Shown piece after piece: positions 7,744 to 49,789 of a stretch of DNA of 64,000 bases (position 1 is the first letter of the stretch; every line of letters starts with the position of its first letter). The notes beneath the pieces were generated by a model. The model saw only the letters and a program-made list of their open reading frames with translations. It did not search any database and was not told where the DNA came from. Source of the DNA: Mucilaginibacter boryungensis (GTDB lineage: Bacteria; Bacteroidota; Bacteroidia; Sphingobacteriales; Sphingobacteriaceae); the NCBI RefSeq assembly GCF_015221995.1, contig NZ_JADFFM010000001.1:1302001-1366000 (forward strand). The letters run 5' to 3'. Made by a program: the position numbers and the translations under genes.

Positions 7744-7761
7744 TAACCAGTATCATAATTT

Positions 7762-7797
7762 AAAAGCCGGGTAAACACAAGTTTGCCCGGCTTTTTA
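7762..7797 (+). terminator. Rho-independent terminator of the efflux operon
   Basis: A 15-bp near-perfect stem (AAAAGCCGGGTAAAC / GTTTGCCCGGCTTTT) around a short loop runs into a T tract, 18 bases after the channel stop codon. Confidence 0.9.
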
Positions 7798-7902
7798 ACG
7801 CAAGCGTAATTGCATATCCATTATAATAAACTGCTCATTTGCTGTAAACCTTCCAACCTAAAGTGTTTTAGTTTTATGTTGATTATCAAACCAGCATCAA
7901 CC

Positions 7903-8763
7903 ATGACTAAACCCTGCCTGAAACTGAAGTTATTGCTATGTGTTTTTATTTTATTTACGGCTTGCACTTTTGTTATCGCGCAAAGCAAAAAAACTAAATT
8001 TAAGGTGATCGCTTTTTACACCGCTAAGCAAGACCTGGCGCATATTAGCTTTGTGCACGAGGCAAACCCATGGTTCGCTAAAATGGCTGACAAATATAAT
8101 TTCCAGTACGATTCAACCACCAACTGGAATAATATGAATGCCAAATTCCTGGCCCAATACCAGGTTGTGCTATTTTTAGATACCCGTCCCGAAGGTGCCG
8201 ATCAGCGTGCTGAATTTCAAAAATATATGGAAAACGGCGGTGGCTGGCTGGGGTTTCACTTCGCTGCATTTGCCATGAACCAATCGGGCGTACCGCAAAA
8301 TTGGGACTGGTACCATAATACGTTCTTAGGTTCGGGGCAATATGTAAGCAACACCTGGCGGCCAACATCAGCTATATTACGGGTAGAGGATAAGCAGCAC
8401 CCGGCAGTAAAAGGCCTGCCCAAAACATTTAAGGCATCGCCGAACGAGTGGTACCGCTGGGAGCGCGACCTGCGCCAAAACCCCGACATCCGCATATTAT
8501 GCGCTATAGATAGCGCCAGCTTCCCCTTGGGTACCGGGCCAAAACAAAGTGAGATATGGCACAGCGGTTATTATCCGGTAGTATGGAGCAACAGTAAGTA
8601 CCGAATGGTATACATTAACATGGGGCACAACGATATGGACTATGAACACAAGTACGATAAAACTAATAAAACCCTGTCAAGCACCTTTGGCAGCGAGATG
8701 GAAAGTAAGCTGATCCTTAACGCGTTGTTATGGTTGGGTGCGGGGAAAGGGAACAGCAAATGA
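7903..8763 (+). CDS. Secreted ThuA-domain protein
   Basis: ThuA-like protein with a class-I-glutamine-amidotransferase-like fold, often found in Bacteroidota carbohydrate loci. The typical block is VVLFLDTRPEGADQ followed by MENGGGWLGFHFAAF, and the C-terminal part holds the conserved VWSNSKYRMVYINMGHN segment. The start at 7903 is chosen because it gives a clean signal peptide (MTKPCLKLKLLLCVF to VIAQ); an in-frame ATG at 7876 and a TTG at 7810 would prepend polar residues. A Cys in LFTACTF could instead be a lipoprotein site. The biochemical role of ThuA proteins is poorly defined; a sugar-related role is only suggested by the GH36 neighbour. Confidence 0.82.
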   Translation: MTKPCLKLKLLLCVFILFTACTFVIAQSKKTKFKVIAFYTAKQDLAHISFVHEANPWFAKMADKYNFQYDSTTNWNNMNAKFLAQYQVVLFLDTRPEGADQRAEFQKYMENGGGWLGFHFAAFAMNQSGVPQNWDWYHNTFLGSGQYVSNTWRPTSAILRVEDKQHPAVKGLPKTFKASPNEWYRWERDLRQNPDIRILCAIDSASFPLGTGPKQSEIWHSGYYPVVWSNSKYRMVYINMGHNDMDYEHKYDKTNKTLSSTFGSEMESKLILNALLWLGAGKGNSK

Positions 8764-8872
8764 TTTTATCCATCCGTACCATGAATTTATCCATTGAATA
8801 AATGATTGATTTGGATTATTATTGCCTTCGCAGATTTACACTGATAAACCATTAACCAATTATTCTTCCGGT

Positions 8873-11035
8873 ATGATAAAAAAGTCCGTTGCCCTGCTTT
8901 TTTTTGCAGCAGGTTTCGTTGCCGCGCAGGCACAAAGTATTAAGCAAATTATTGTTGAAACCAAAGATGTAAGCCTTGTTTTTAAGGTTTATAGTAATAA
9001 CCGGGTGTATCAAACCTATTTTGGTAAAAAACTGGCTAATACTGCAGAGTATGCAGGCTTGCCTACTGGCCGTAAAGAAGCCTATATAACCGGCGGCATG
9101 GAAGACCAGAACGAGCCGGCCATTAAAGTTACCCATACCGATGGCAATCCATCGTTGCTGCTGCAGTACGTAGCCGATAAGCAGGATAAGCAGGGCGACA
9201 TGACCGAAACTACCATCGAACTAAAAGACCCTAAATACCCGGTTGAAGTAGTATTGCATTATCAGGCATACGAGCAGGAGAACGTTATAAAAGCCTGGAC
9301 TGAAATTAAAAACGATGAAAAGGGCGCGCTAACGCTTACCAATTATGCATCGAATATGTTGCACTTTGATGCGGCCAAATATTACCTTACGCAGTTTCAC
9401 GGCGATTGGGCAACTGAAATGAAAGAGCAGGAAAGCCAACTAACCAGCGGCATAAAAGTAATTGACAGCAAACTGGGTACCCGTGCCGATAAGTTCCAGG
9501 CGCCTATGTTTATGCTTGCGCTAAATAAACCTGCCGATGAAGCCAGCGGCGAAGTAGTGGCTGCCACATTGGCGTGGACAGGCAACTTCCAGTTCCAGTT
9601 CGAGATAGATGAGATCAATGGTCTGCGGGTGATATCAGGGATCAACCCGTACGCATCAGAATATCATCTGGCGCAGGGCAAAACGTTTACTACACCGGCT
9701 TTAATATTCACCTACAGCAATACCGGCAAAGGCCAGGCCACCCGTAATATCCATAAATGGGCGCGCAACTATGGCGTAATGGATGGCAAAGGTACCCGTG
9801 TAACCTTGCTGAATAACTGGGAGGCTACCGGCTTTAAATTTGACGAGCAAATGCTGGTAGGCTTGTTTGATGGCGCAAATAAATTAGGTGTCGATCTGTT
9901 TTTGTTAGATGATGGCTGGTTTGGTAACAAATACCCGCGCAGTAACGATAAAGCCGGTCTTGGCGATTGGGAAGCCAACAAAACCATCCTGCCGCATGAT
10001 GTAGAATACCTGGTAAAACAAGCCGAGGCTAAAGGCATTAAGTTTGGGATTTGGCTGGAGCCGGAGATGGTGAACCCCAAAAGCGAACTATACGAAAAGC
10101 ATCCCGAATGGATATTGAAATTACCCAACCGCGAGGAGAACTACCAGCGCAACCAATTGGTGCTTGACCTAACCAACCCTAAGGTACAGGATTATGTATA
10201 TAGCATTGTAGATAACCTGCTCACTAAAAACCCGGGCGTGGCCTATATTAAATGGGACTGCAACCGTACCATGAGTAACACTTACTCGCCGTATTTAAAA
10301 GATAAACAATCGCACCTGTATGTTGATTATACTTTGGGCTTGTATAAAGTGCTGGACAGGGTTCGTGCAAAGTACCCCACCATGCCTATGATGCTTTGCA
10401 GCGGCGGTGGCGGCCGTACCGATTATGCTGCCATGAAGTATTTTACAGAATTTTGGCCAAGCGATAACACCGACCCTGTTGAACGGGTATTCATTCAATG
10501 GGGGTACAGTAACTTCTTTCCCGCGCTTACTGTTTCAAACCATATTACTTCGTGGAATAAAACGGCTTCCCTTAAATTCCGTACAGATGTGGCCATGATG
10601 GGCCGTATGGGTTATGATATGGATGTAAAGAAAATGACCGAAGCAGAGATCAAATTCAGTCACGCTGCTGTGGCCACCTATAATCGTATCAAACCGGTAA
10701 TATTTCAGGGCGACCTTTACCGACTGGTATCCCCCTATGAAGAAAACCGTGCCGATTTGATGTATGTGAGCGATAAAAAAGATAAGGCAATATTATTTAA
10801 CTACGTGCTGAACAAACGCTACAAGGAACCTTTCACCAAAATTAAAATGCAAGGGTTGGATGCACAGAAGCAATACAAAGTTCAGGAAATAAACCTGGTA
10901 GAGGGTGCTAAAGCTGCCTTGCAGGATAACGGCAAAATCTTCAGCGGCGAATACCTGATGACAATAGGCGTTGGCATTACTACGGGCAGCGCGGGTCAGC
11001 AAAGCAGCAATGTGATAGAGGTAACGCAGCAGTAA
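8873..11035 (+). CDS. Alpha-galactosidase, glycoside hydrolase family 36
   Basis: Exo-acting retaining alpha-galactosidase predicted to release terminal alpha-D-galactose from oligosaccharides or galactomannan in the periplasm. A signal peptide (MIKKSVALLFF to AAQAQ) supports the ATG at 8873 over the upstream TTG at 8822. The N-terminal beta-sandwich is followed by a TIM barrel with the family signatures LLDDGWFG and GIWLEPEMVNP. The likely nucleophile is D462 in YIKWDCNR and the acid/base region is SDNTD (residues 530-534). At 720 residues it has the normal GH36 length. The gene ends at a strong terminator. Specificity for alpha-galactose over N-acetylgalactosamine is inferred from these motifs. 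Confidence 0.92.
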   Translation: MIKKSVALLFFAAGFVAAQAQSIKQIIVETKDVSLVFKVYSNNRVYQTYFGKKLANTAEYAGLPTGRKEAYITGGMEDQNEPAIKVTHTDGNPSLLLQYVADKQDKQGDMTETTIELKDPKYPVEVVLHYQAYEQENVIKAWTEIKNDEKGALTLTNYASNMLHFDAAKYYLTQFHGDWATEMKEQESQLTSGIKVIDSKLGTRADKFQAPMFMLALNKPADEASGEVVAATLAWTGNFQFQFEIDEINGLRVISGINPYASEYHLAQGKTFTTPALIFTYSNTGKGQATRNIHKWARNYGVMDGKGTRVTLLNNWEATGFKFDEQMLVGLFDGANKLGVDLFLLDDGWFGNKYPRSNDKAGLGDWEANKTILPHDVEYLVKQAEAKGIKFGIWLEPEMVNPKSELYEKHPEWILKLPNREENYQRNQLVLDLTNPKVQDYVYSIVDNLLTKNPGVAYIKWDCNRTMSNTYSPYLKDKQSHLYVDYTLGLYKVLDRVRAKYPTMPMMLCSGGGGRTDYAAMKYFTEFWPSDNTDPVERVFIQWGYSNFFPALTVSNHITSWNKTASLKFRTDVAMMGRMGYDMDVKKMTEAEIKFSHAAVATYNRIKPVIFQGDLYRLVSPYEENRADLMYVSDKKDKAILFNYVLNKRYKEPFTKIKMQGLDAQKQYKVQEINLVEGAKAALQDNGKIFSGEYLMTIGVGITTGSAGQQSSNVIEVTQQ

Positions 11036-11939: not shown

Positions 11940-12647
11940 TTATATCCTATGTACTTCGCCGCTGCCCGAGGTGCTTTTGGATACCTCTTTAGGATTACCG
12001 GCATAACGGATGTCACCCGAGCCAGATACCCTGGCTTCAAGTTTTTGCGAGGCATTTACTGTGGCATCACCTGAACCCGAAATACTTATCGTAGTAATGG
12101 CGGTAACAAAGTCGCGGCCCGAAAAATCGCCCGAACCATTCATACGTATGATAGATGTTTGAGCATTGCCGGCCAGTTTAATATCGCCGCTGCCTGATAC
12201 ACGGGTCTCCAGGCTTTTTGCGTTTAGTTTGCCAACAACATCGCCCGAGCCGCTAACAATCAACTCCATTTTATCGGCATTAATGCCTTCTTTAAAGAAA
12301 ACATCGCTTGAGCCAGAAATATTAATAGCGTGGATGCTTTTGATAGTTACATACACAACCATTTTTTTGTGCGAATTGTTAAACCAGCCGCCCCAGCTGA
12401 AGGAGCCGTTTTTTGTCCGGATCTTTAACACGTCGCCGTCTACCTCGGTAATAATACGGTTGATCACGTCGGACGGTGCTTCTACCTTAACCGATTCGGT
12501 TGAACCTTGTGTAATATAAACATCAAAAGATGCGGAAGCACTAATAGCGTGGAAGCCGGATAAGTGGCGGTCTTGCACTTCAGCGAAAGCGCTATTTAAG
12601 CCAATAATCAGTAGTACGGCAAATAAAAATGTGGTCAGTTTTTTCAT
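11940..12647 (-). CDS. GIN-domain (DUF2807) head protein, exported
   Basis: A 235-residue secreted protein with a signal peptide ending at about residue 22 and a beta-helical GIN domain made of repeated SGSGD units (ISGSSD, VSGSGD, NGSGD, ISGSGD and others), each about 20 residues apart. Such proteins are thought to be envelope adhesin-like or scaffold proteins; no enzymatic residues are evident. It shares a terminator with the convergent DUF2490 gene and is divergent from the cytochrome b5-like gene, with a mirror-symmetric leader between them. Confidence 0.85.
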   Translation of the reverse strand: MKKLTTFLFAVLLIIGLNSAFAEVQDRHLSGFHAISASASFDVYITQGSTESVKVEAPSDVINRIITEVDGDVLKIRTKNGSFSWGGWFNNSHKKMVVYVTIKSIHAINISGSSDVFFKEGINADKMELIVSGSGDVVGKLNAKSLETRVSGSGDIKLAGNAQTSIIRMNGSGDFSGRDFVTAITTISISGSGDATVNASQKLEARVSGSGDIRYAGNPKEVSKSTSGSGEVHRI

Positions 12648-12658
12648 GGTTTTATAGT

Positions 12659-12740
12659 TTTTGTAGCAATAAGACGTTAACCCGATGCAATAGGTTACAG
12701 TAAATATCGCTTTTTTTGTGTACTTTAATTAGCTACAAAA
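12659..12740. promoter_or_regulatory. Mirror-symmetric divergent leader region
   Basis: TTTTGTAGC at 12659-12667 and GCTACAAAA at 12732-12740 form a perfect 9-bp inverted repeat, and on each side an AT-rich stretch ends in ACCATG. The two divergent genes therefore have near-identical 5' leaders, which may reflect a shared regulator site or ribosome-binding context. Confidence 0.35.
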
Positions 12741-12746
12741 TAAACC

Positions 12747-12983
12747 ATGACCGACCTGCCCGAATATACCCGCTCTCAACTGGCCCTGCGCAATGGGCAG
12801 GATAAACCCCAAATATGGATTGCCTATCTGGGTATTATATATGATGTGACGGAAAGCCGCCTGTGGCGCAATGGCAAGCATTACGAACACTGGGCCGGGC
12901 AAGACTTAACTCCCGAATTAGTGGATGCACCGCATACCGAAACTGTTTTCGAGAAGTTTAAAAAGGTAGGGGTATTGAAGTAA
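12747..12983 (+). CDS. Cytochrome b5-like heme/steroid-binding domain protein
   Basis: A 78-residue soluble protein made only of a cytochrome b5-type domain, matching the small predicted heme-binding proteins of COG4892. The diagnostic segment is IWIAYLGIIYDVTESRLWRNGKHYEHWAGQDLT, given here as IWIAYLGIIYDV at about residues 25-36 and KHYEHWAGQDLT at about 48-59. Possible axial ligands are the His residues near 49, 52 and 67. There is no signal peptide, so it is probably cytoplasmic. A small hairpin (AACCTG/CAGGTT, 12988-13003) follows the gene but lacks a good T tract. Confidence 0.78.
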   Translation: MTDLPEYTRSQLALRNGQDKPQIWIAYLGIIYDVTESRLWRNGKHYEHWAGQDLTPELVDAPHTETVFEKFKKVGVLK

Positions 12984-38950: not shown

Positions 38951-38992
38951 CATTTTAAATATTTATATGTAGTAATAGAAATATTTAAAATG
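38951..38992 (+). promoter_or_regulatory. Perfect inverted repeat ending in the start codon of the HD/Pycsar-type gene
   Basis: CATTTTAAATATTT (38951-38964) and AAATATTTAAAATG (38979-38992) are perfect complements around a 14-nt spacer, and the last three bases are the ATG of the next gene. In RNA this would sequester the initiation site; in DNA it could be a repressor site. Confidence 0.6.
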
Positions 38993-40222
38993 GTAAACAC
39001 TATAGTTGATTTTGATAAACTGTTGCGTCAGGTAAAAAAGTTTGTAATATCCTATTACAGATCTTACGCCGACCCACGATACGTATATCATAACGTTGGG
39101 CATACGCGCGATGTAGTGGCAGCGGCAAAGCAGATAGCCGACCACTATCAATTAAACGAAACCGATTATTTTGCTGTGATGACCGCAGCCTGGTTTCATG
39201 ATACCGGCTATGTTACCGGCACAACCGAACATGAAGAGAAAAGTGCTGTAACCGCGATGGATTTTTTACGCGGATTTGAATTGGATGAGCCCATTTTAAA
39301 AAATATTACCGATTGTATTTTAGCTACGAAATTACCGCAAGCGCCCCAAAACCTTTTGCAAAGCATTATTTGCGATGCTGATCTGTTCCACTTTGGAACA
39401 AGTGATTTTGAACGCAAAAGCAAATTACTGCGCCAGGAATTTAAAGAATTGCATAACGAGGATATCAGTAAAAATGACTGGCGTATAAAAAGCGTGGAAA
39501 TGATGGAAGCGCACGAATACCATACCGATTATTGCCGGGTGCTGTTAAATGAAGGTAAGGAACGGAACCTGCAACTGTTAAAAGATAAAATTGAAAAGGT
39601 TGAGGACAAAAAACAAAAGCAAGCACCGGCACAAAAGGCAACGGGCTTAGCCCCTGATGATAAACAGATATTCTCGGGGGAGGGGAATGATAAGCAGGAA
39701 CTGAGCAAGGGCGTGGAAACTATGTTCAGGCTAACATCAACCAACCATCAGCGCTTAAGCAACATGGCAGATAGTAAAGCGCATATTATGATATCGGTTA
39801 ATGCCATTATTATCTCCCTGCTGTTAAGTTTATTACTGCGAAATATCGGCGCGCACCATAACCAGCTGATACCGGCTATTATGCTGCTCACCGTTAACCT
39901 GGTTACAATCGTATTCTCTATTTTGGCCACCCGGCCAAACATATCCGAAGGAACATTTACCCAAAAGAATATTGAAGAACGCGATGTTAACCTGTTGTTT
40001 TTTGGCAACTTTTACAAAATGGCGCTTGATGACTATAAAGCAGGCATGGTCACCATGATAAAGGATAACGAGTTTTTATACAGCAGCCTTATTATCGATG
40101 TATATTCGCAAGGGATTGTGCTGGGGCGTAAATATCGCTTATTACATATAGCCTATAATGTGTTTATGTTTGGGTTAGTTATTTCTGTTATCGCATTTGT
40201 AATTTCTGCTTCTATAAAATAA
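38990..40222 (+). CDS. HD-domain phosphohydrolase fused to a Pycsar effector-type membrane domain (DUF5706)
   Basis: Two-part protein of 410 residues. Residues 1-200 form an HD-type metal phosphohydrolase with H34/H38, H70-D71 (AWFHDTGY), H81 and D129/D131. Residues about 240-410 match the Pycsar effector (PycTM, DUF5706) domain: a soluble lead-in ETMFRLTSTNHQRLSNMADSK region, transmembrane helices at about 265-285, 293-314 and 386-408, and an intervening cytoplasmic part. In Pycsar defence, PycTM-type proteins respond to cyclic CMP or UMP by damaging the membrane; the HD half could degrade a nucleotide signal. No cyclase gene is in the window. It heads a tight operon with a start-codon inverted repeat. 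Confidence 0.85.
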   Translation: MVNTIVDFDKLLRQVKKFVISYYRSYADPRYVYHNVGHTRDVVAAAKQIADHYQLNETDYFAVMTAAWFHDTGYVTGTTEHEEKSAVTAMDFLRGFELDEPILKNITDCILATKLPQAPQNLLQSIICDADLFHFGTSDFERKSKLLRQEFKELHNEDISKNDWRIKSVEMMEAHEYHTDYCRVLLNEGKERNLQLLKDKIEKVEDKKQKQAPAQKATGLAPDDKQIFSGEGNDKQELSKGVETMFRLTSTNHQRLSNMADSKAHIMISVNAIIISLLLSLLLRNIGAHHNQLIPAIMLLTVNLVTIVFSILATRPNISEGTFTQKNIEERDVNLLFFGNFYKMALDDYKAGMVTMIKDNEFLYSSLIIDVYSQGIVLGRKYRLLHIAYNVFMFGLVISVIAFVISASIK

Positions 40223-40277: not shown

Positions 40278-41138
40278 ATGAAAACAAAGTTTATTTTTAG
40301 CGTAATAACCCTCACAAGTTTTATAACGCTGTTATCCTGCATTCAAAAACAAATCAGCAGCAGTCCTATAGGTTACAATTTTGCAAAGCCGGTTAAGTAT
40401 AATGTGCCCGCGCAGCTAAGCGAGATATCGGGTATAGCCTTTAACAAGGGGAAAAGTAATATCATTTACGCTGAAGATGACGAGAATGGGCGCGTGTACT
40501 TTTTCCGCGAAGGCGATAAAAACGTAAAGTTCACAGAGTTTAAAGAGACAGGCGATTTCGAAGACATCGCTATTTGTAATAACCAGGTGATTATGCTGCA
40601 AAGCAAGGGAGTATTATTCACTATCCCGCTAACCGAAATTGGTAAACCTGTAACTGAAAAAGCCCACAAAAATAAAGATCTGTTACCCGATGGTGAATAT
40701 GAAGGTATGTATGCCGACGAGAATACCAGTGAAGTGTATGTTTTGTGTAAACATTGCACTACAGACAAAACAAGCAAGGAAAGCAGCGGGTTTATTTTTA
40801 AGTTAGCCAGTGATGGCACACTAAAGCAAAGCGGCGATTTTAAGATAAATGTAAAGCACATTGAGGGGTTGCTGGGTGTGGATAAAATCAGCTTTCATCC
40901 ATCGGCTTTGGCGCGTAGCCCGCTTAGTAACGATTGGTATATCCTGTCGTCGGTTAATAAGATATTGGTGGTGGCCGATGCTAAATGGAAAATACGTGAG
41001 GTTTATAAACTCGATCAAAACCTGTTCACTCAGCCGGAAGGTATGGCTTTTGATAGCGCGAACAATTTATATATATCAAACGAAGGGCACGCGCCGCAGC
41101 CAGGCAACATCCTGAAGTTTATGTATAAGAAGCAATAG
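40278..41138 (+). CDS. SdiA-regulated-domain lipoprotein (beta-propeller type)
   Basis: A 286-residue lipoprotein with lipobox LLSC (Cys21). The mature part matches the SdiA-regulated family (PF06977), a propeller-like fold: ISGIAFNKGKSNIIYAEDDENG, FEDIAICNNQVIML, EYEGMYADENTSEVYVLCKHC and QPEGMAFDSANNLYISNEGH are its repeated blades (each quoted in part at about residues 50, 95, 145 and 255). Its function is not established; related propellers bind ligands or act as phosphodiesterase-like proteins. It is 55 bases after the HD/Pycsar gene and 9 before the large fusion gene, so it belongs to the same operon. Confidence 0.82.
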   Translation: MKTKFIFSVITLTSFITLLSCIQKQISSSPIGYNFAKPVKYNVPAQLSEISGIAFNKGKSNIIYAEDDENGRVYFFREGDKNVKFTEFKETGDFEDIAICNNQVIMLQSKGVLFTIPLTEIGKPVTEKAHKNKDLLPDGEYEGMYADENTSEVYVLCKHCTTDKTSKESSGFIFKLASDGTLKQSGDFKINVKHIEGLLGVDKISFHPSALARSPLSNDWYILSSVNKILVVADAKWKIREVYKLDQNLFTQPEGMAFDSANNLYISNEGHAPQPGNILKFMYKKQ

Positions 41139-41147
41139 TTATTTTTA

Positions 41148-44100
41148 ATGAAGAGACTGGTCCTATTTCCCCTGTTATTATTAGTATTTTCCCTGCACGC
41201 CCAGGATTCTGTTAAGTACCGTATTATCCTGATAGGCGATGCCGGCGAACTTGGTAAGCAGCAAAAAGGCGTACTAAGCAGTGCTGCCGCTAATGTGCTG
41301 GAAAATAAAACCACAGTGCTTTACCTTGGCGATAATATCTATCCCACAGGTATTGGACTGCCGGGCAGTAAAGAGGAAGAAACAACTAAAAATATCCTGC
41401 GGTCGCAGTACCAGCCTATGCGCGCTGCCGGGGCGCCGGTTTATTTTATACCCGGTAACCACGATTGGGACCGGATGGGCCCAAAAGGCCTGGCTAAAGT
41501 AAAACGCGCGGGCGAGTTTTTGGCTGAACAAAAAGATACCCTGCTTAAAATGGCGCCGGCAAAGGGTTGCCCAGATCCCACGGAAATAAAGATTAACGAC
41601 GATTTGGTAGTTATTGCTTTCGATTCGGAATGGTGGCTTTACATTTATAACAAGGATAACCCCGATGCTGATTGCGATTGCAAAACCAATGATGAAGTTA
41701 TTGGCCGGTTTAAAGAATTGCTGTATAAAAACCGCGATAAGATCATCATCCTGGCCGACCATCATCCCTTTGATACCTACGGGCACCATGGCGGCAGCTA
41801 TATTTGGCAGGATTACCTGTTCCCGCTAACCTCTGTAAAAAGCAGCTTGTATATACCTCTGCCGGTAATAGGCGCTTTATATCCGTTTTTACGAAGTACT
41901 TTTGATAACCCCGAGGATAACGGGCACCCCTTGTACAAAACGATGATCAAGGGGATAGACCGCGTATTTACGCTCGATTCAAACGTGGTGCGTGTTGCCG
42001 GGCATGAACATGGCCTGCAATTTATAAATGATGAAGGGGTAATACAGGTGGTAAGCGGTTCGGGCGCTAAACGGGCGGTAGTAAAAAAGGGCAAACATTC
42101 GTTATTTGCCCTAAGGGAAGCCGGTTATGTTACCCTTGATTTAATGCTGAACAAAAGTATGCGCTTTACCTACTATGCAAATAACGCCAAGGATAGCGTT
42201 TTTAAAAAGGTGTACACCTACAGCAAGCCATTTATCCCGGTACATATTCCTGTTGAAAAAAGTGACGTGGTAATGAAAGAGGATAGTATTACCGTATCGG
42301 CACACCCGTCTTTTAATAAAGTAAGTAAACTGCACCGCCTGGTTTATGGTGAAAACTACCGAAAGGAGTGGGCCGTAAACGCACGCCTGCCTATCATAAA
42401 ACTGCACTCGTACCAGGGCGGGCTAACCCCGGTAAGGCTTGGCGGCGGCCACCAAACTGAATCGCTTTTATTGAAAAATAAAGAAGGTAAAAACTATATT
42501 TTAAGCAATATTGAAAAATATCCATACATGCTGTTGCCGCAACAATTAAGGCAAACCTTCTCAAAATCGTGGTTAAAAGATGCCATGTCGGCACAATTTC
42601 CGTATGGCGCTGTTGTAGCTGCAGAAATTGCCCGGGCTGTTAAAGTAAACCATACTACACCAACCATAGGCTGGGTAGCACCCGATGCACATTTTGGTTA
42701 TTATGAGACACAGTTTGCCGGCAAAATATGCCTGATAGAGGAACGCGAACCGGGCGATAGTTCTATCAATACAGGTAATATGATAAAGTTGCTTAATGCC
42801 AGCGATAACAACCGTATTGATAGCGTGGAATTTTTTAAAGCCCGTTTGCTGGATTGGTTTTTGGGCGACTGGGATGAACACGAAGACCAATGGCGCTGGC
42901 AATACAAGCGAAGGGGCAATGTTAACTATTATACCGCAGTACCGCACGATAGGGCCGAAATGTTCTTCATTAACCAGGGGGTTATCCCAAGTATTGCATC
43001 GCGGCGGTGGGTGGCGCGATATTTAAAAGGGTATAATGGCGGCTACAGGACGATAAACGATTTTTTTGAGAACGACCATACCCTGAATACACGGTTCATG
43101 ACCCAGATAGGTTATGATCAATGGATGCAGGTTACCCGCAGCTTTGCTGCCGCGCTTACCGACGATGTTTTAGAAAACTCATTAAAAAAACTGCCGCTGG
43201 CGGTATACCGCATCAGGCATAGGCAGTTAATGGCCCTGATGCGCGAAAGACGTGATAAGCTTGTTGCAGCAGCCGAAACCTATTACCGCTTTTTTAATCA
43301 CCGGGTTGATGTTAAACTTTCAGATCAGGGCCAGGTTGTATCTGTAAAAGATACGCTTAACGGCGCTTTGGTAATTACTGCACGCAGGGCCAGGTACCGC
43401 GGTAAAAGTGTTTTGTTTTCAAGGGTGTTCGACCCGAAAATAACCAAAGAAGTAAGGCTGTATATTTCAAAAGGCGATGATAGTGTGCTGGTAGATCAGA
43501 AAGTATCCAAAATAAAGGTTAGGATTATTGGGGGTAACGGGCATAAATTATATAATATAGTTAATGCTGGTCCAAAGGTTAATGTATACGAAAAGCTGAA
43601 CACCGCAACCTTTACGGGGCCGGCCCAGGACAGGGTAGATAAGCATCTGTCAAACGATACTTCAAACATTGGTTACGTGCCAACTAATTTATACCATACT
43701 ATATTGCCGCTATTTCAAACAGGCTATAATTTTGATGATGGCTATTATTTTAATGTGGGCTTTAAATATATCCATCAGGGTTTCCGTAAATTTCCCACCA
43801 GCACGCAGGAGGCTGTTTACGGGCATTCTGTTGCCAGCGGCGAATCAAGGCTTAGCTATAACGGCAGTTGGGTTAACGCTTTTGGTAAAGCCGATGCTGA
43901 GATTGCCGTGAATGCTTATTTCCCCAAAGTGATCAACTTTTTTGGGCGCAGCAACCAGCCTGAATTTAATAAGGTTGGCGATTACAATAATTATTACCGT
44001 GCTAAATTTAATTTTTACACGGTAGATGCTACCGTCCGTTTTCAAAACCTTGATGGTACTATTATTTTAAGGCTGGGCCCTTCTGTGCAATATTATCACC

Positions 44101-44747
44101 CCGTTAGCGAAAATCTGGGGCGTTTAGTATCAAACCCCAATTTGATCCACACTTATGATAGCGCGACGGTGAACAACGATAAAGTGCACGCGGGCATAGT
44201 TGCTACCTACATTGATGATAAGCGTAACAATAAGGTATTGACAGATTGGGGCGTATATGTAAATGTGCGTATCCAGGCTTATGCCGGGGTTGGCGGTAAC
44301 AGCCGCTCGTTCATTCAGGCCATACCTGAAGCCCGTTTGTATAAAAGTGTCGATACCAAATCTAACTTTGTAATAACCGAACGGATAGGCGGCGGTTTAA
44401 CATATGGTAGAACAACTTACTATCAATCGTTGTTTTTAGGGGGCGAGGATAATCTTCCCGGATTTAAACAGGATAGGTTTGCCGGACAGCAAATGATGTT
44501 TAACAACCTGGAAGCAAGGATAAAACTAACTGATTTTTTACCATACATCCTGCCCGGTCAGTTTGGGTTAACAGCCGCCCATAATATTGGGCGTGTGTGG
44601 GTTAAGCGTGAGTTTTCTACCGAGTGGCATAACAGCTTCAGCGGGGGCATTTACATATCGCCATCAGATATGGCCTTGTTTCAGTTAAAAGGCGGTTATT
44701 CTAAGGAAGGCTTTTATCCGTATGTTAATTTTAGTTTGACTTTTTAA
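41148..44747 (+). CDS. Metallophosphoesterase - kinase-like - Omp85-type barrel fusion protein
   Basis: A 1199-residue exported protein. After the signal peptide (to about 19), residues 25-330 form a calcineurin-like phosphoesterase with D31, GDN 61-63, GNHD 103-106, HH 205-206 and GHEHG 285-289. Residues about 385-800 show a pattern reminiscent of HipA/Fam20/PI-kinase-like folds: a Gly-rich hairpin (GGLTPVRLGGG), KICLIEERE, then GDWDEHEDQW (573-582) and VPHDRAEMF (598-606). The last 350 residues form a beta-barrel with LPGFKQDRFAG and a following N-x-E-x-R, the Omp85 surface-antigen pattern, ending in FSLTF. The kinase reading is inferred. It sits 9 bases after the propeller gene and 2 before the GAF gene. 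Confidence 0.78.
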   Translation: MKRLVLFPLLLLVFSLHAQDSVKYRIILIGDAGELGKQQKGVLSSAAANVLENKTTVLYLGDNIYPTGIGLPGSKEEETTKNILRSQYQPMRAAGAPVYFIPGNHDWDRMGPKGLAKVKRAGEFLAEQKDTLLKMAPAKGCPDPTEIKINDDLVVIAFDSEWWLYIYNKDNPDADCDCKTNDEVIGRFKELLYKNRDKIIILADHHPFDTYGHHGGSYIWQDYLFPLTSVKSSLYIPLPVIGALYPFLRSTFDNPEDNGHPLYKTMIKGIDRVFTLDSNVVRVAGHEHGLQFINDEGVIQVVSGSGAKRAVVKKGKHSLFALREAGYVTLDLMLNKSMRFTYYANNAKDSVFKKVYTYSKPFIPVHIPVEKSDVVMKEDSITVSAHPSFNKVSKLHRLVYGENYRKEWAVNARLPIIKLHSYQGGLTPVRLGGGHQTESLLLKNKEGKNYILSNIEKYPYMLLPQQLRQTFSKSWLKDAMSAQFPYGAVVAAEIARAVKVNHTTPTIGWVAPDAHFGYYETQFAGKICLIEEREPGDSSINTGNMIKLLNASDNNRIDSVEFFKARLLDWFLGDWDEHEDQWRWQYKRRGNVNYYTAVPHDRAEMFFINQGVIPSIASRRWVARYLKGYNGGYRTINDFFENDHTLNTRFMTQIGYDQWMQVTRSFAAALTDDVLENSLKKLPLAVYRIRHRQLMALMRERRDKLVAAAETYYRFFNHRVDVKLSDQGQVVSVKDTLNGALVITARRARYRGKSVLFSRVFDPKITKEVRLYISKGDDSVLVDQKVSKIKVRIIGGNGHKLYNIVNAGPKVNVYEKLNTATFTGPAQDRVDKHLSNDTSNIGYVPTNLYHTILPLFQTGYNFDDGYYFNVGFKYIHQGFRKFPTSTQEAVYGHSVASGESRLSYNGSWVNAFGKADAEIAVNAYFPKVINFFGRSNQPEFNKVGDYNNYYRAKFNFYTVDATVRFQNLDGTIILRLGPSVQYYHPVSENLGRLVSNPNLIHTYDSATVNNDKVHAGIVATYIDDKRNNKVLTDWGVYVNVRIQAYAGVGGNSRSFIQAIPEARLYKSVDTKSNFVITERIGGGLTYGRTTYYQSLFLGGEDNLPGFKQDRFAGQQMMFNNLEARIKLTDFLPYILPGQFGLTAAHNIGRVWVKREFSTEWHNSFSGGIYISPSDMALFQLKGGYSKEGFYPYVNFSLTF

Positions 44748-44749
44748 AC

Positions 44750-47083
44750 ATGCATAACAAGTTAATTAATATTAAGGCATTTTTAAAACTGGAGGATATG
44801 ATAGCACATCAGCTATCCTTCAGGCCCTTTATTAGTTATCTTAAACACAGGGTAGAGGTTGAAAAAACCATCAAATCGGAATTTTACCGTTTTGTATTAA
44901 ATAAATTCAGGGCATATCCGCAATTTGAAACCGACTGCATAGGGGCGGAGGAAGCGGCAGGGTATACCAATTTGCTTGAATTGGTTTATACCGTACTATC
45001 ACCGACAATTGAGGATGAAGGCTCTTTATTCTGGGCTATCGGAAACCCATTCCGTTCTAAAATAGTTTTTAGTACCGATGCCTTTTACACTTTTATAGAA
45101 GGCCGTAACCAACACGATCAGAAAAATATTTTAAGCGATTCGGCCCTCAAACAGCGACAGATAGATTTCCTTTACAGGTTAATACTGCAAAAATTATACA
45201 ATTTCCCACCCGATACCGGGCACGATAATGTTTATGCGCTGCCTGATAAAAAGAACGGGCTGATAAAATATTACCGCGTACATAACGATGTAAGGTTTAT
45301 TGATGTAATAGCCAAGGGTAAACTGCCCGAGATAAATCCTGAAATGATAGAGCCTTTTTTGTATGAAGGGGCGGATATGAGCATACTGAAGGATATTATT
45401 CCCTTAGACATGTTCCGGCTGGAGGGCTTTACCGTGATCACTATACACGATATCACAGCCAAACATTCAATAGAAACCATCAGGCATGCTTTGATTAACA
45501 ATACGCCTAAAACAAAAGATCTTTACAAGAATATATTAAGCGCGTTGCAAACTTTATCGGGTAACCCATCGGTACAGTTTGGGTTAATGCCCTTTATCAG
45601 GGTTAACAACCAATTAGTTTTTGACCCGCCCGAGTGTAAAAACAGTATGCTGGTAAGAACAGGTAAAAAGCGCGGCGTTTTTACCTGCGAGTTCCTTTCG
45701 TTTATTAAAGATTATATTCAGAAGCCCGAGGCGATGTTTTTTATCACCCTGTCTGATAAGAAAATTGCCCAATACCCATTTCTAAAGCGGCTGAAGGATG
45801 CAAACATCAGGTCGTACGTTATCATCCCGGTTTATTATAACCGTCATTTGGCCGGCGCATTAGAGATATTTTCCGAGCAAAAAGTTGTTTTTTACGAGAA
45901 GCTTTTATCGCGCCTGCAAAACGCCATACCATTATTGTCGCAATTGCTGCATAATACATCCGAACAGTTCACCGAAAGGCTGCAGCGTATTATAAAAACA
46001 AGCTTTACAAACCTGCAACCAGCGGTTGAATGGAAGTTTAACGAGGCTGCCTGGCATTACCTGATAGCCGGGCAAAAAAACAGTAAGTCGGAAATGGAAC
46101 TGGTATCCTTTCATAATGTGCACCCGCTATACGGCGCTATTGATATCAGAGATTCCACTATACAGCATAATAAAGCGTTGAAGCAGGATATAAAAATATT
46201 GATAGATAAAATTGCTGACCTGCTGAAGCATTTAAAACAGGTAATACCAAATAAACGCGCAACCGCAGATTTGGTAAAAAAACATACGCAATGGCTTTCG
46301 GACATACGTGTATTTGAAAGGGCTAACGATGAGGCCATGCTTAACGAACTGCTAAAAGGTACTATTAACCCATACTTTTTTGCTTTACGCCACAAATACC
46401 CGGTTGCTGAAAAACTGATATGCGACTATGAAAAGGCTGTTGATGAAACAGGATTGGTATATCAGCACCGCAGTGCTGTAGAAAAATCTATAAAGATGAT
46501 CAATAGGGCTATGGGCAATTATTTTGATGCTGCACAGGTTAAACTGCAAAAAATATATCCCTGCTATTTTGAAAAATTCAGATCGGACGGGATAGAATAC
46601 GACGTATATACCGGGCAAAGCCTGGCCCCCGATTTGCCATTTAAGGATAAGTACTTAACCAATTTTAGGAAATGGCAATTAAAAGCTATGATAGATGTAG
46701 CTAAAATAACCCGTAAGCTTGAAACTAAAATGCCTGTTCCGTTGCAAACCGCTTCGCTGATATTTGTGCACTCAAGCCAGATAGACATTTGTTTCAGGAA
46801 TGACGAACGCCACTTTGATGTAGAGGGGTATTACAATATAAGGTATGAGGTGATAAAAAAACGGATAGATAAAGTTCATTTAAAAAGCACAAAGGAAAGA
46901 TTGACACAGCCGGGGAAAATTGCCTTGGTTTACTTTAACAATACCGAGGCCGAGGAATACATTGCTTTAATAAAACAATTTCAAAAAGACGGGAGCCTGA
47001 AAAAGGACATGGAGTTTGTTGAATTAGAAAATTTGCAGGGCGTAACCGGGCTTAAAGCCTTGCGGGTGAGCATACAATTGTAG
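44750..47083 (+). CDS. GAF-domain-containing cytosolic protein of unknown function
   Basis: A 777-residue soluble protein without signal peptide or membrane helices. Residues about 310-400 read as a GAF-like sensory domain (for example SYVIIPVYYNRHLAGALEIF). The flanking regions are mostly helical with conserved-looking but unassigned blocks (LLELVYTVLSPTIEDEGSLFWA near 65-85, INRAMGNYFDAA near 582-595). No HTH, kinase or cyclase motif is seen. It starts 2 bases after the large fusion gene, so the two are translationally linked. A sensory or scaffold role inside the cell for the envelope proteins around it is inferred. Confidence 0.65.
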   Translation: MHNKLINIKAFLKLEDMIAHQLSFRPFISYLKHRVEVEKTIKSEFYRFVLNKFRAYPQFETDCIGAEEAAGYTNLLELVYTVLSPTIEDEGSLFWAIGNPFRSKIVFSTDAFYTFIEGRNQHDQKNILSDSALKQRQIDFLYRLILQKLYNFPPDTGHDNVYALPDKKNGLIKYYRVHNDVRFIDVIAKGKLPEINPEMIEPFLYEGADMSILKDIIPLDMFRLEGFTVITIHDITAKHSIETIRHALINNTPKTKDLYKNILSALQTLSGNPSVQFGLMPFIRVNNQLVFDPPECKNSMLVRTGKKRGVFTCEFLSFIKDYIQKPEAMFFITLSDKKIAQYPFLKRLKDANIRSYVIIPVYYNRHLAGALEIFSEQKVVFYEKLLSRLQNAIPLLSQLLHNTSEQFTERLQRIIKTSFTNLQPAVEWKFNEAAWHYLIAGQKNSKSEMELVSFHNVHPLYGAIDIRDSTIQHNKALKQDIKILIDKIADLLKHLKQVIPNKRATADLVKKHTQWLSDIRVFERANDEAMLNELLKGTINPYFFALRHKYPVAEKLICDYEKAVDETGLVYQHRSAVEKSIKMINRAMGNYFDAAQVKLQKIYPCYFEKFRSDGIEYDVYTGQSLAPDLPFKDKYLTNFRKWQLKAMIDVAKITRKLETKMPVPLQTASLIFVHSSQIDICFRNDERHFDVEGYYNIRYEVIKKRIDKVHLKSTKERLTQPGKIALVYFNNTEAEEYIALIKQFQKDGSLKKDMEFVELENLQGVTGLKALRVSIQL

Positions 47084-47203: not shown

Positions 47204-49789
47204 ATGTTTACAAAAAAAACCTATTCTGCGTTCATATTAACTTTATCCATTATCGGCATTGCAGGTGTTGCTTTTGCACAGCAAAAGGTTTTGGGCGATA
47301 GTATTAAAATTGCCGTTTACCCGCCCTATAACAAGGTAAGTGCCCTACATAGAACGTTTTGGGGCAAAAACTACCGCACGCTTTGGGCTACACCAGTTAA
47401 CATGAAGGTGTTTTATCTTGAAAAAGAAAAGGGGGGCTTAACCATAACTGATATGGGCGGCGGTAAGCAAACCCGTTCGCTGCAATTAACCGATGCCGCA
47501 GGACACCAATGGGCTTTACGTTCTGTACAAAAATTCCCCGAAAGGGCATTGCCTAAAGATCAGCGGCATACCGTATTAAAAGCTATTTTACAGGACGAGG
47601 TAACTACATCTAACCCATACGCCGCGCTTGCGGTACCGCCACTGGCTGATGCCCTTAACATTCCGCATAGCAACCCGGTATTTGTTTACCTGCCAGACGA
47701 CCCTGCCTTAGGCCAATACCGTAAAGAATTTGCCAACCATGTTTACCTGTTTGAAGAACGTGAACCGCTTGATGGCACAAAAACATACAAAACAGAAAAG
47801 GTACAGGAAAAGCTACAGGATGATAACGATAACCGCATTGACCAAAAGCAACTGCTGCGCGCCCGCCTGCTGGATATGATTATGGGTGACTGGGACAGGC
47901 ACGGCGACCAATGGCGCTGGGAAAAGGAAGATAGTGGCAAAATTAATTTATATCAACCTATTCCAAAAGACAGGGATAAGGTTTTCTATTCAACATCGGG
48001 TGTCTTCCCATTCTTTGCCGCTCTGGCCAACCCGCAACTGCAGCCTTTTAAAAACCATATCAGCAAAATAGAATTCTGGAATAAAAACGCCATTTACTTT
48101 GATTTTTATTTCCTTAACCAATTAAGCAAAACCGACTGGGAAGAACAAATAGCTTACGTGCAAAGCAAACTTACCAATGAATTGCTGGCTAGCGCTGTGA
48201 AAAAACTACCTGCCGATATTTACAAATTGACCGGCAGGGAAACAACTGAAAAACTGATAGCGCGCCGTAATAATATCAAGCACGACGCATTGGAATATTA
48301 TCTTTTCCTCGCTAAAAATGTAGATGTATCAGCATCGGATAAAAAGGAACAATTTACAGTTAACGAACTGGATAACGGCAGCCTCGATGTTACCATGCGT
48401 GCAGTTAAAAAAGATGACAGCCTGGGCAAAGTTGTTTACCACCGCATTTTACAACCGGGTGAGACCAAAAGTGTGCGCCTGTATGGCATGGGCGGTAAGG
48501 ATGTATTTATGGTAAAGGGCCATGTGCCCTCGCCAATAAAGGTACGGATGATTGGTGGTGATGGAGAAGACCGTTTTATAATAGACAGTACTTTGTTTAA
48601 CCGGCGCAAACTGGTTGTTTTTGATAGGTCGGATGAGAAAAATGAACTGCCGCCGCACCGTTTAGCCAGTGTAATGACTTCCAAAGATACCAGTGTAAAT
48701 ACATACGATAAGTATAACTTTAAATACGATTTGTACCTGCCTAAGGTAGGCATAGGTTATAATACTGAAGATGGTGTGCGGCTGCAGGTTGGCTATGCTA
48801 TTGAAAAGCATGGCTTCAGGGATAGCCCGTATGTTTATAAACAAGAACTTAGCGCGGGTTATACACTATCAAAAAGCTCGTTTATTTTCACTTATGCGGG
48901 CGATTTTAAAAATTTCATTGGTACAAGCGGCCTTAACGTCAACGTCATCGGCCGTGGCCCAAACAATGTAAACAGTTTTTTTGGTTACGGCAACAATTCG
49001 GTATTTGTGAATGAAGGGACAAAGGAGTTTAATTACTACCGCAACCGGTACGATCATATCGACGCCGACATCAGGATATACCAGCAACATAAAAAATGGA
49101 AGATCAGCGAAGGGGTGATAGGGCAGTATTATACCAGCAATTTGGCTACCAACGTAAACCACTATTTTTTTGAATATAACCAGCAACACCCGGCAGATGA
49201 TTTTTTTGCCACCAAGGCATACGGCGGCTTGGTATTAGGTGCCGAATTTGATACCAGGGACAACACAACCTGGCCCACTAAAGGGATATACTGGACCACC
49301 AAAATAACGGGTTTAACGGGTATAAATATAAAAGATCACACCAACGGGCAAATATTTACCACCTTCAACTTTTACTTAAATCCCGGCGGCGACTCTACAT
49401 TTGTAATAGCTAACCGTATTGGCGGCGGGGTATTTATCGGGCATGGCGAGTTTTTTCAGATGATGAATTTAGGTGGCCCATTCAGCTTGCAGGGATACCA
49501 TACCAGCAGGTTTATAGGTAAACAAATGGCATTTAACAATACTGAATTACGTTTAAAGCTATTTAAATTTAACACCTACATATTCCCGGGTACATTAGGG
49601 CTTATAGCTTACAATGATGCCGGCAGGGTATGGTTACCCGGCGAAAGTTCGGACACCATACACGATGCTTTTGGCGGCGGGTTATTCATCACCCCATATA
49701 ACAAAGTGATGCTATCGGCAGTAATAGGGCAAACTACTACCGGTGCCGATGGCAGCTTGCTTTACCTCTCGGCCGGCGTAAGGTTTTAA
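47204..49789 (+). CDS. Kinase-like - Omp85-type barrel protein (paralogue of the upstream fusion without phosphoesterase)
   Basis: An 861-residue exported protein (signal peptide to about residue 26) that parallels residues 385-1199 of the gene at 41148. Shared landmarks: VYPPYNKVSALHRTFWGKNYRTLWA against SAHPSFNKVSKLHRLVYGENYRKEWA (quoted in part), GGLTITDMGGGKQTRSL, VYLFEEREP, the loop GDWDRHGDQW (228-237) and IPKDRDKVF (253-261). Here the canonical DRH of PI-kinase/Fam20-like enzymes is intact. The C-terminal barrel shows FSLQGYHTSRFIG and NNTELRLKL, as in Omp85 proteins, and ends LSAGVRF. An outer-membrane-anchored phosphotransferase is inferred. It lies 120 bases after the GAF gene, behind a hairpin. 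Confidence 0.78.
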   Translation: MFTKKTYSAFILTLSIIGIAGVAFAQQKVLGDSIKIAVYPPYNKVSALHRTFWGKNYRTLWATPVNMKVFYLEKEKGGLTITDMGGGKQTRSLQLTDAAGHQWALRSVQKFPERALPKDQRHTVLKAILQDEVTTSNPYAALAVPPLADALNIPHSNPVFVYLPDDPALGQYRKEFANHVYLFEEREPLDGTKTYKTEKVQEKLQDDNDNRIDQKQLLRARLLDMIMGDWDRHGDQWRWEKEDSGKINLYQPIPKDRDKVFYSTSGVFPFFAALANPQLQPFKNHISKIEFWNKNAIYFDFYFLNQLSKTDWEEQIAYVQSKLTNELLASAVKKLPADIYKLTGRETTEKLIARRNNIKHDALEYYLFLAKNVDVSASDKKEQFTVNELDNGSLDVTMRAVKKDDSLGKVVYHRILQPGETKSVRLYGMGGKDVFMVKGHVPSPIKVRMIGGDGEDRFIIDSTLFNRRKLVVFDRSDEKNELPPHRLASVMTSKDTSVNTYDKYNFKYDLYLPKVGIGYNTEDGVRLQVGYAIEKHGFRDSPYVYKQELSAGYTLSKSSFIFTYAGDFKNFIGTSGLNVNVIGRGPNNVNSFFGYGNNSVFVNEGTKEFNYYRNRYDHIDADIRIYQQHKKWKISEGVIGQYYTSNLATNVNHYFFEYNQQHPADDFFATKAYGGLVLGAEFDTRDNTTWPTKGIYWTTKITGLTGINIKDHTNGQIFTTFNFYLNPGGDSTFVIANRIGGGVFIGHGEFFQMMNLGGPFSLQGYHTSRFIGKQMAFNNTELRLKLFKFNTYIFPGTLGLIAYNDAGRVWLPGESSDTIHDAFGGGLFITPYNKVMLSAVIGQTTTGADGSLLYLSAGVRF

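Follow-up and report, generated by a model that had tools for sequence, protein, structure and literature searches.

We describe a 1199-residue protein of Mucilaginibacter boryungensis in which a purple-acid-phosphatase-type phosphoesterase and a predicted kinase-fold domain are joined to an Omp85-type barrel. Its gene, an ATG-started open reading frame (41148..44747, forward strand), lies in the 64,000-nucleotide stretch of DNA analyzed here, the window. Since full-length relatives occur in other genomes of the family (29 proteins of 1196 to 1223 aa, 43 to 61% identity, the best among the matches listed) and 107 of the 151 family genomes searched contain a match, we do not regard this ORF as a chance one. 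Pfam assigned Metallophos (PF00149) to residues 25 to 223 (E 5e-7) and Omp85 (PF01103) to residues 957 to 1154 (E 4.3e-6), with no significant family between these two matches. The three-part protein claimed in an earlier note on this DNA is thus encoded by a genuine ORF, and each part is backed by predicted structure (Table 1). In the reading to which we give an even chance, the fusion protein and a paralogue two genes downstream would reversibly phosphorylate an envelope substrate on the periplasmic side of the outer membrane, in a module that also has a cytoplasmic arm.

Table 1. Domains of the fusion protein and neighboring genes, with positions in the window
Feature	Residues	Positions	Strand	Basis or remarks
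Signal peptide	1-19	41148..41204	+	Read from sequence; helix 2-17 in model
Metallophosphoesterase, purple acid phosphatase type	20-366	41205..42245	+	Pfam, VIA, motif conservation
Kinase-fold domain	377-716	42276..43295	+	Predicted model, Foldseek, VIA
Catalytic-loop-like motif GDWDEHEDQWRW	573-584	42864..42899	+	Family consensus GDWDRHEDQWRW; D576 invariant
Metal-loop (DFG-like) motif VPHDRAEMF	598-606	42939..42965	+	Consensus VPRDRDQVF; D601 kept, D603 to A
All-beta linker domain	719-835	43302..43652	+	DSSP of models
16-strand Omp85 barrel	849-1199	43692..44747	+	Strand count, VIA, Pfam PF01103
HD-PycTM membrane protein, recurrent neighbor		38990..40222	+	Pfam PF18967 E 1.6e-30, PF01966 E 1e-5
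Lipoprotein-like SdiA-regulated (propeller) protein, recurrent neighbor		40278..41138	+	Pfam PF06977 E 2.9e-7; conserved in loci
777-aa protein, cytoplasmic type		44750..47083	+	No Pfam family over cut-off; conserved in loci
861-aa bipartite paralogue, kinase fold and Omp85, without phosphoesterase		47204..49789	+	Near-canonical active-site motifs (row L003)

The N-terminal signal peptide is, judging from its sequence, probably cleaved after HAQ. The phosphoesterase that follows it was modeled with a fold close to that of human TRAP (2bq8; VIA Z 27.8, rmsd 2.7, 270 aligned residues, 18% identity). Its metal motifs, which the earlier note had called complete, are all present, starting at residues 30 (GDAG), 61 (GDNIYP), 103 (GNHDW), 205 (HHP), and 285 (GHEHG). 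D31, D62, Y65, N104, H205, H286, and H288, which we take to be the seven metal-ligand positions of purple acid phosphatases, are each found in the window protein and in 33 to 35 of the 36 tripartite proteins aligned, with the tyrosine of GDN-x-Y (Y65) in 35 of them. The model and motifs together suggest a purple-acid-phosphatase fold with all seven ligand residues. A metallophosphoesterase of Riemerella reportedly has phosphatase activity, according to a 2021 paper.

For the middle region, a fold search placed kinase folds on top (CtkA, PI4KII, CotH, and HipA), in line with the kinase-like module proposed from the sequence. The predicted model (mean pLDDT 91.2) returned 16 Foldseek matches in the PDB at E ≤ 0.001, every one a kinase fold, led by HipA-like CtkA (4.2e-7) and PI4KIIalpha (1.1e-5); the LPS kinase WaaP also appeared among the rows (E 1.5e-3). 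VIA scores were 15.4 for PI4KII, 13.7 for CotH, 13.2 for CtkA, and 10.7 for HipA (Z, rmsd 4 to 5 Å), and the model thus points to a two-lobe kinase fold, which spans residues 413 to 716. Neither HipA (PF07804) nor CotH (PF08757) gave a Pfam match in this region. An hhalign comparison with 8 CotH and 13 HipA relatives, taken from the same taxonomic order, gave probabilities under 1%, a weak negative from small alignments without a positive control, and when PDB sequences were searched by profile, only a match at chance level came back (E 0.058). Since these profile searches gave nothing, we base the kinase assignment on the predicted structure.

Conservation within the family was assessed in an 83-row alignment, in which 81 rows were typed as tripartite (36) or bipartite (45, without an intact fused phosphatase); bipartite denotes proteins shorter than 1100 aa, a class that includes one tripartite gene split between frames (L076). 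D576 and D601 were chosen as the catalytic and metal Asp by motif and secondary-structure position. The two motifs singled out in the earlier note, GDWDEHEDQW (residues 573 to 582 of the translation) and VPHDRAEMF, proved to contain strongly conserved residues: D576 occurs in 83/83 rows, as do D569, D574, W575, D478, and E531, and D601, Q581, and K457 occur in 82/83. The window protein retains all of D576, Q581, D601, K457, D478, and E531. The position +5 from the loop Asp, where kinases usually have N, is Q in 82/83 rows. Three positions conserved in more than 95% of the rows are altered in the window copy (R453S, R577E, and D603A). Among the 36 tripartite proteins, 33 have R at 453, 33 have R at 577, and 34 have D at 603; the three positions are also changed in three close relatives (L004, L005, and L033), with two of the three changed in a fourth (L034). 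Position 453, R in 80/83 rows, would in our own register be the equivalent of the beta3 Lys that holds the nucleotide phosphates in atypical kinases; K457, directly after the strand, is the other candidate for this role. An active kinase in the window copy is a prediction that has to accommodate three altered near-invariant positions; its kinase part may be weak or act as a regulator, with the paralogue as the catalyst.

The C-terminal region was modeled as 16 strands at residues 851 to 1197. A fold check recovered Omp85 barrels (VIA Z 27.8 for TamA and 27.5 for BamA; Foldseek E 1.1e-10 for BamA), and the L-x-G-F/Y and N-x-E-x-R pattern reported earlier is present as LPGF at 1103 to 1106 (the L6 pattern) and NLEAR at 1120 to 1124. 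By its BamA/TamA-type fold, the modeled barrel belongs to the Omp85 superfamily. No POTRA was found ahead of the barrel, the segment from 719 to 835 being all beta in the model and not a beta-alpha-alpha-beta-beta unit. The portion of the 2014 survey available to us already places POTRA-less proteins within the superfamily as "noNterm" (Heinz and Lithgow 2014, PMC4104836).

Three kinase-fold-Omp85 proteins, including that of the window, were found in the M. boryungensis genome, and genomes possessing the family carry one to five matches. A second cluster in the same genome includes the polyphosphate kinase PPK1; the window's own cluster is without it. A relative of the 777-aa protein elsewhere in the genome (L115) has a GAF_2 match under the cut-off (E 0.001), and a relative of the SdiA-regulated neighbor in another locus (L064) shows a weak phytase-like match that falls below the threshold (E 0.0012). 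Barrel-less family members in genome G221 start with lipobox-like signal sequences, as read from their residues, which speaks for a periplasmic placement of the enzyme domains. Unfused phosphatases lay 0.2 to 2.6 kb from a kinase-Omp85 ORF in 10 of 18 phosphatase-only rows (10 genomes), and the other 8 were not near any listed kinase gene, both counts being among the matches listed.

We measured partner linkage across the phylum in 80 Bacteroidota genomes, 28 with a kinase-Omp85 gene and 52 without. PycTM membrane proteins were found in 24 of the 28 compared with 3 of the 52 (Fisher p 3e-13, with genomes treated as independent), and lay within 5 kb of the kinase-Omp85 gene in 16/28 genomes from nine families. 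The nine-family count is the safer figure, since the Fisher test treats related genomes as independent. PycTM was absent from 4/28 kinase-Omp85 genomes, and 6 of the 24 genomes that carry both genes do not have them close together. Many loci close to the lineage of the window also have PPK1 in the cluster (38 of the 80 fetched by similarity to the window); being the top matches to the window family, these loci favor near relatives, and because 17/80 hold less than 17 kb, neighbors may have been missed. Phylum-wide, PPK1 lay within 5 kb in 3/28 kinase-Omp85 genomes, which weakens it as a defining partner, and within 20 kb in 10/28, seven of them from one family at 12.5 to 15.4 kb. Given that PPK1 is rarely near, we take PycTM as the more constant partner. 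Its recurrence beside the kinase-Omp85 gene in several families hints at an unstudied envelope phosphorylation system.

In the module that we favor, the POTRA-less barrel would anchor the phosphatase and the divergent atypical-kinase domain in the outer membrane, with both enzyme domains on the periplasmic side, a location that PlpD and other Omp85 proteins suggest by analogy. The fusion protein and its kinase-Omp85 paralogue (47204-49789) would act as a write/erase pair, adding phosphate to a protein or lipid head group of the envelope and removing it again where the outer membrane faces the periplasm. Inner-membrane HD-PycTM, joined in relatives by PPK1 and a SixA-like phosphatase, could serve as a cytoplasmic arm that links the module to the nucleotide or polyphosphate state of the cell. 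We infer catalysis, the opposition of kinase and phosphatase, and the functions of the neighbors. The periplasm is not known to have a supply of ATP, which weighs against this reading. A more elaborate form of this idea, in which these proteins are the outer-membrane half of a trans-envelope system, with HD-PycTM sensing or turning over a nucleotide signal, PPK1 supplying or sensing polyphosphate, and the fused phosphatase erasing the work of the kinase, strikes us as unlikely. In that form, given the lack of a known periplasmic ATP supply, the kinase may take polyphosphate or another exported phosphate carrier as its donor.

The altered positions raise the question of whether the window domain is instead a pseudokinase, a binder of nucleotide, polyphosphate, or phospho-substrate that controls the fused phosphatase. 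The phosphatase would then be the sole active enzyme, and kinase catalysis in the locus would fall to the bipartite paralogue or to no protein at all. S, E, and A at 453, 577, and 603, positions also altered in close relatives, and a near-canonical kinase-Omp85 gene two genes downstream speak for this. However, the six retained active-site residues, and drift confined to a small clade rather than family-wide, argue the other way, and we hold the idea to be doubtful, if the most serious of the rivals. The domain might also transfer a group other than phosphate, such as AMP, as does SelO, or phosphorylate an outer-membrane lipid or sugar head group and not proteins. The lipid kinases PI4KII as top VIA matches, WaaP among the Foldseek rows, and the near-universal Q at +5 are consistent with this. 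Because CotH and HipA-like protein kinases match nearly as well as PI4KII, however, the fold leaves the substrate undecided, and we consider such a transfer rather improbable.

Two further readings give the barrel or the phosphatase the leading part. In nutrient scavenging, the phosphatase would free periplasmic phosphate from organic phosphates or polyphosphate, with the barrel as anchor, the middle domain as substrate binder, and PPK1 linkage as a sign of phosphate storage. This would suit the purple-acid-phosphatase type, the PPK1 neighbors, and the weak phytase-like match, but the 45 bipartite rows of the 81 typed keep kinase active-site motifs, and PycTM is the partner that recurred most steadily; we see a slim chance for it. 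Envelope quality control or secretion, in which the barrel would fold proteins or move them across the membrane, with the enzyme domains working on the passengers, accords with the Omp85 fold and lies near the 2014 views on the "Metallo" subfamily, as far as the available text conveys them (PMC4104836). With no POTRA in the model, and PF00149 being a phosphoesterase and not a protease family, it is highly improbable.

If the favored module is correct, a kinase and a phosphatase on one outer-membrane anchor would bring reversible phosphorylation outside the cytoplasm to a large phylum. The family is testable, with separable domains, barrel-less versions, and a defined membrane partner, and gives a definite starting point for asking from what source kinases outside the cytoplasm obtain their phosphate. 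"Pycsar effector" annotations in Bacteroidota also gain another likely context.

Several known systems resemble parts of this one. The kinase-fold domain is like HipA/CtkA, CotH, and PI4KII in overall fold and, by eye, in its catalytic-loop and metal-loop motifs, but is Omp85-anchored and without profile similarity to HipA or CotH. The phosphoesterase shares the TRAP fold and motif residues, including GDN-x-Y, but is bacterial and fused to a kinase fold and barrel. In the secretory pathway, phosphorylation by Fam20C is reversed by TRAP, and the trans-envelope reading would make the window system a bacterial counterpart. Pycsar consists of a PycC cyclase and a PycTM effector. The window locus likewise has a partner with a PycTM domain (PF18967), but here and in L115 PycTM is fused to HD; with no match to the pyrimidine cyclase PF00211 at E ≤ 1e-5 in the genome, we set a Pycsar-defense reading aside. 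A class III cyclase-like ORF adjoins the fusion gene in family f21. PlpD, a patatin-POTRA-Omp85 protein with a periplasmic N-terminal enzyme domain in the account available to us (PMC11116518), likewise carries its enzyme on an Omp85 barrel, but has a patatin-like domain and POTRA where the window protein has a phosphatase and kinase fold without POTRA. The arrangement called unusual in the earlier note is partly in print: a metallophosphoesterase-Omp85 fusion was listed as the "Metallo" subfamily, with PF00149 called a metalloprotease (Heinz and Lithgow 2014, PMC4104836, as available to us). The main text of that paper did not yield the word "kinase," and a limited literature search found neither the kinase fold and gene context of the fusion nor a kinase and phosphatase pair on one outer-membrane anchor. 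Because PF00149 is a phosphoesterase family, the protease reading of the "Metallo" group, as given in the portion available, is corrected here. Sharing PF00149 and the Omp85 barrel, "Metallo" members are probably the same proteins as the window family or close relatives, as far as their description there allows; the window family differs in its bipartite members without PF00149, which make up 45 of the 81 typed rows.

The tripartite protein of the window, the product of a single unbroken open reading frame (ORF) of 1,199 codons in a 4.88-Mb genome, was assigned by Pfam to the calcineurin-like phosphoesterases at residues 25 to 223 and to Omp85 at residues 957 to 1154, with no significant Pfam match between residues 223 and 957. 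NCBIfam returned the Omp85 match alone, far below its cutoff. The named records most similar to the middle domain belong to Mucilaginibacter, namely, a metagenome-assembled genome (MAG; locus L077) at 76% over the first 180 residues and strain PPCGB 2223 (locus L033) at 61% across the entire domain. An AlphaFold2 model of residues 366 to 860, built with 83 aligned sequences, had a mean pLDDT of 91.2 and a pTM of 0.91. Foldseek searches of this model against the PDB returned 16 matches at E ≤ 0.001, every one of them a kinase fold, led by CtkA of Helicobacter pylori (best E value, 4.2e-7), with PI4KIIα at 1.1e-5 and further matches to Rio2, the HipS-HipT complex, a bacterial Ser/Thr kinase and its complex, and PI4KIIβ. 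VIA-align gave Z scores of 15.4 for PI4KIIβ (rmsd 4.5 Å, 255 residues aligned), 13.7 for CotH (4.2 Å, 243 aligned), 13.2 for CtkA (4.6 Å, 236 aligned), and 10.7 for HipA (4.1 Å, 212 aligned), all exceeding the 7 to 8 that the tool itself states is typical of models without a clear match. The CtkA and CotH alignments span approximately model positions 48 to 349 (residues 413 to 714), and all 50 VIA-align rows, judged by title or by the known fold of the protein, are kinase folds. The kinase-like middle region claimed in the earlier note is therefore supported at the level of the predicted fold, including the proposed resemblance to HipA and PI-kinase-like enzymes. Since rmsd values are 4 to 5 Å, kinship to known kinases would be distant; sequence profiles gave no link of the family to HipA or CotH in a comparison run without a positive control.

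In a model of the whole protein (pLDDT 87.4, pTM 0.73), the barrel has 16 strands, from residue 851 to 1197, and residues 719 to 835 form an all-beta domain where POTRA would stand. The barrel matched TamA (Z 27.8, rmsd 2.8 Å, 291 aligned) and BamA (Z 27.5), in agreement with the Omp85-type C terminus that had been proposed, and the phosphatase part matched human purple acid phosphatase (Z 27.8, rmsd 2.7 Å, 270 aligned). The phosphoesterase metal motifs, described earlier as complete, are so: D31, D62, N63, Y65, N104, H105, H205, H206, H286, and H288 are all present. Each is kept in 33 to 35 of 36 tripartite rows; a few relatives have lost some of these residues. An 83-row family alignment holds 36 tripartite rows, 45 bipartite rows (under 1,100 amino acids [aa]), and 2 untyped ones. 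The GDN-x-Y motif (Y65 in GDNIY) aligns with human TRAP, and Y65 is the counterpart of the ligand tyrosine of purple acid phosphatases.

In the kinase fold, D478, E531, D569, D574, W575, and D576 are identical in all 83 rows, and K457, Q581, and D601 are kept in 82. Judged by eye, the catalytic loop appears to lie at D-x-H-x-D-Q-W (576 to 582), and the P-x-D-R motif appears to supply the counterpart of the DFG aspartate, D601; PI4KII has equivalents of both. The family residues R453, R577, R600, and D603 are replaced in the window protein by S, E, H, and A, respectively, a deviation found in only 3 of 30 tripartite proteins, the window copy included; L033 shares these deviations in the alignment, and a further locus, L034, does so in part. 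The bipartite paralogue downstream carries the motifs GDWDRHGDQWRW and PKDRDKVF. Together, these observations suggest that the kinase part of the window protein may be impaired, while the neighboring paralogue looks intact.

Coordinates of the features discussed
Source	Feature	Position	Strand
Window	HD-PycTM gene	38990-40222	+
Window	Tripartite gene	41148-44747	+
Window	Bipartite paralogue	47204-49789	
L139	SixA-type histidine phosphatase (PF00300)	4539-5036	
L140	SixA-type histidine phosphatase (PF00300)	12405-12953	
L141 (G221 C27)	Barrel-less kinase-fold protein	4129-5682	-
L141 (G221 C27)	Barrel-less kinase-fold protein	5759-7378	-
L141 (G221 C27)	Barrel-less kinase-fold protein	7469-9148	+
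L076	Broken tripartite gene	6890-10439	
G025	Tripartite relative	C19:861576-865052	

The window's genome holds three kinase-fold-Omp85 members: the tripartite protein and two lacking the phosphoesterase, one in the window and another 437 kb away. Matches were present in 107 of 151 genomes searched within the bacterial family and in 28 of 80 across the phylum, in four architectures: tripartite, bipartite, phosphoesterase alone, and kinase-fold proteins without a barrel. The last are three clustered proteins of 518 to 560 aa; inspected by eye, two of them, and perhaps the third as well, start with lipobox-like signals. Among the family-search matches listed, 18 were phosphatase only; 10 of these, from 10 genomes and one of them interrupted by an internal stop, have a kinase-Omp85 ORF at a distance of 0.2 to 2.6 kb, and 8 are not near any listed one. 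Fusion in some genomes and adjacency in others suggest that phosphatase and kinase-Omp85 act jointly. In one MAG (L076), the tripartite gene is broken across frames and that for polyphosphate kinase (PPK1) is also in pieces, perhaps through sequencing errors. The G025 relative lies within a 1,856-aa open frame, the longest among the family-search matches listed, and a Bacteroidota-type cluster (L060) sits on a contig labeled as a Williamsia MAG, perhaps mislabeled or a mixed bin.

The window genes run on one strand in the order HD-PycTM, SdiA-regulated lipoprotein-like protein, tripartite protein, 777-aa protein, and bipartite paralogue. PycTM is the PF18967 membrane domain, formerly named DUF5706. 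PPK1 is absent from this cluster. By Pfam, the L033 cluster is of the window type with PPK1 between HD-PycTM and the lipoprotein, and a second cluster in the window's genome (L115) comprises HD-PycTM, PPK1, lipoprotein, and a bipartite gene, joined by a relative of the 777-aa protein in convergent orientation. PPK1 was found in 38 of the 80 loci best matching the window family, including 24 of 35 intact tripartite loci, and in two more distant clusters (L139 and L140), a SixA-type histidine phosphatase lies near it.

We surveyed these partners by profile matches in 80 Bacteroidota genomes, in which kinase-Omp85 occurred in 28, PPK1 in 74, and PycTM in 27. PycTM and kinase-Omp85 occurred together in 24 genomes versus 9.5 expected (Fisher P = 3e-13, ignoring relatedness), with PycTM ≤5 kb from the kinase gene in 16 of 28 kinase genomes, spanning nine families, and ≤12 kb in 18. 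Against this linkage, four kinase genomes lack PycTM, three PycTM genomes lack the kinase, and in 6 of the 24 the two lie farther apart or on separate contigs. PPK1 was ≤5 kb from the kinase gene in 3 of 28 kinase genomes and ≤20 kb in 10, seven of these from one family (f21) at 12.5 to 15.4 kb. All seven kinase-bearing f21 genomes (G175, G187, G195, G203, G214, G218, and G226) carry, some 1.1 to 1.3 kb from the kinase match, an ORF that resembles class III cyclases and is about 650 aa long, and their PycTM ORF is short (about 200 aa). A PF00211 profile search of the window's genome found no cyclase. Pfam names PycTM "Pycsar effector"; the three examined (window, L064, and L115) are HD fusions.

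On the best-supported reading, phosphorylation would be reversible in a module that sits on the inner face of the outer membrane and has a linked membrane partner, the passage from fold to catalysis, donor, and substrate being an inference. In the open-licence literature, we found no description of an Omp85-metallophosphoesterase-kinase arrangement, nor of such an arrangement in work on polyphosphate kinase with Omp85 or on DUF5706. The folds are known, and the arrangement and gene context are, as far as we could find, undescribed. The phosphoesterase-Omp85 fusion itself has been published as the "Metallo" subfamily, interpreted there as a metalloprotease (PMC4104836). In PlpD, another enzyme-Omp85 fusion, the N-terminal enzyme is reported to be periplasmic (PMC11116518), and by this analogy the phosphatase and kinase fold of the window protein would be periplasmic as well.
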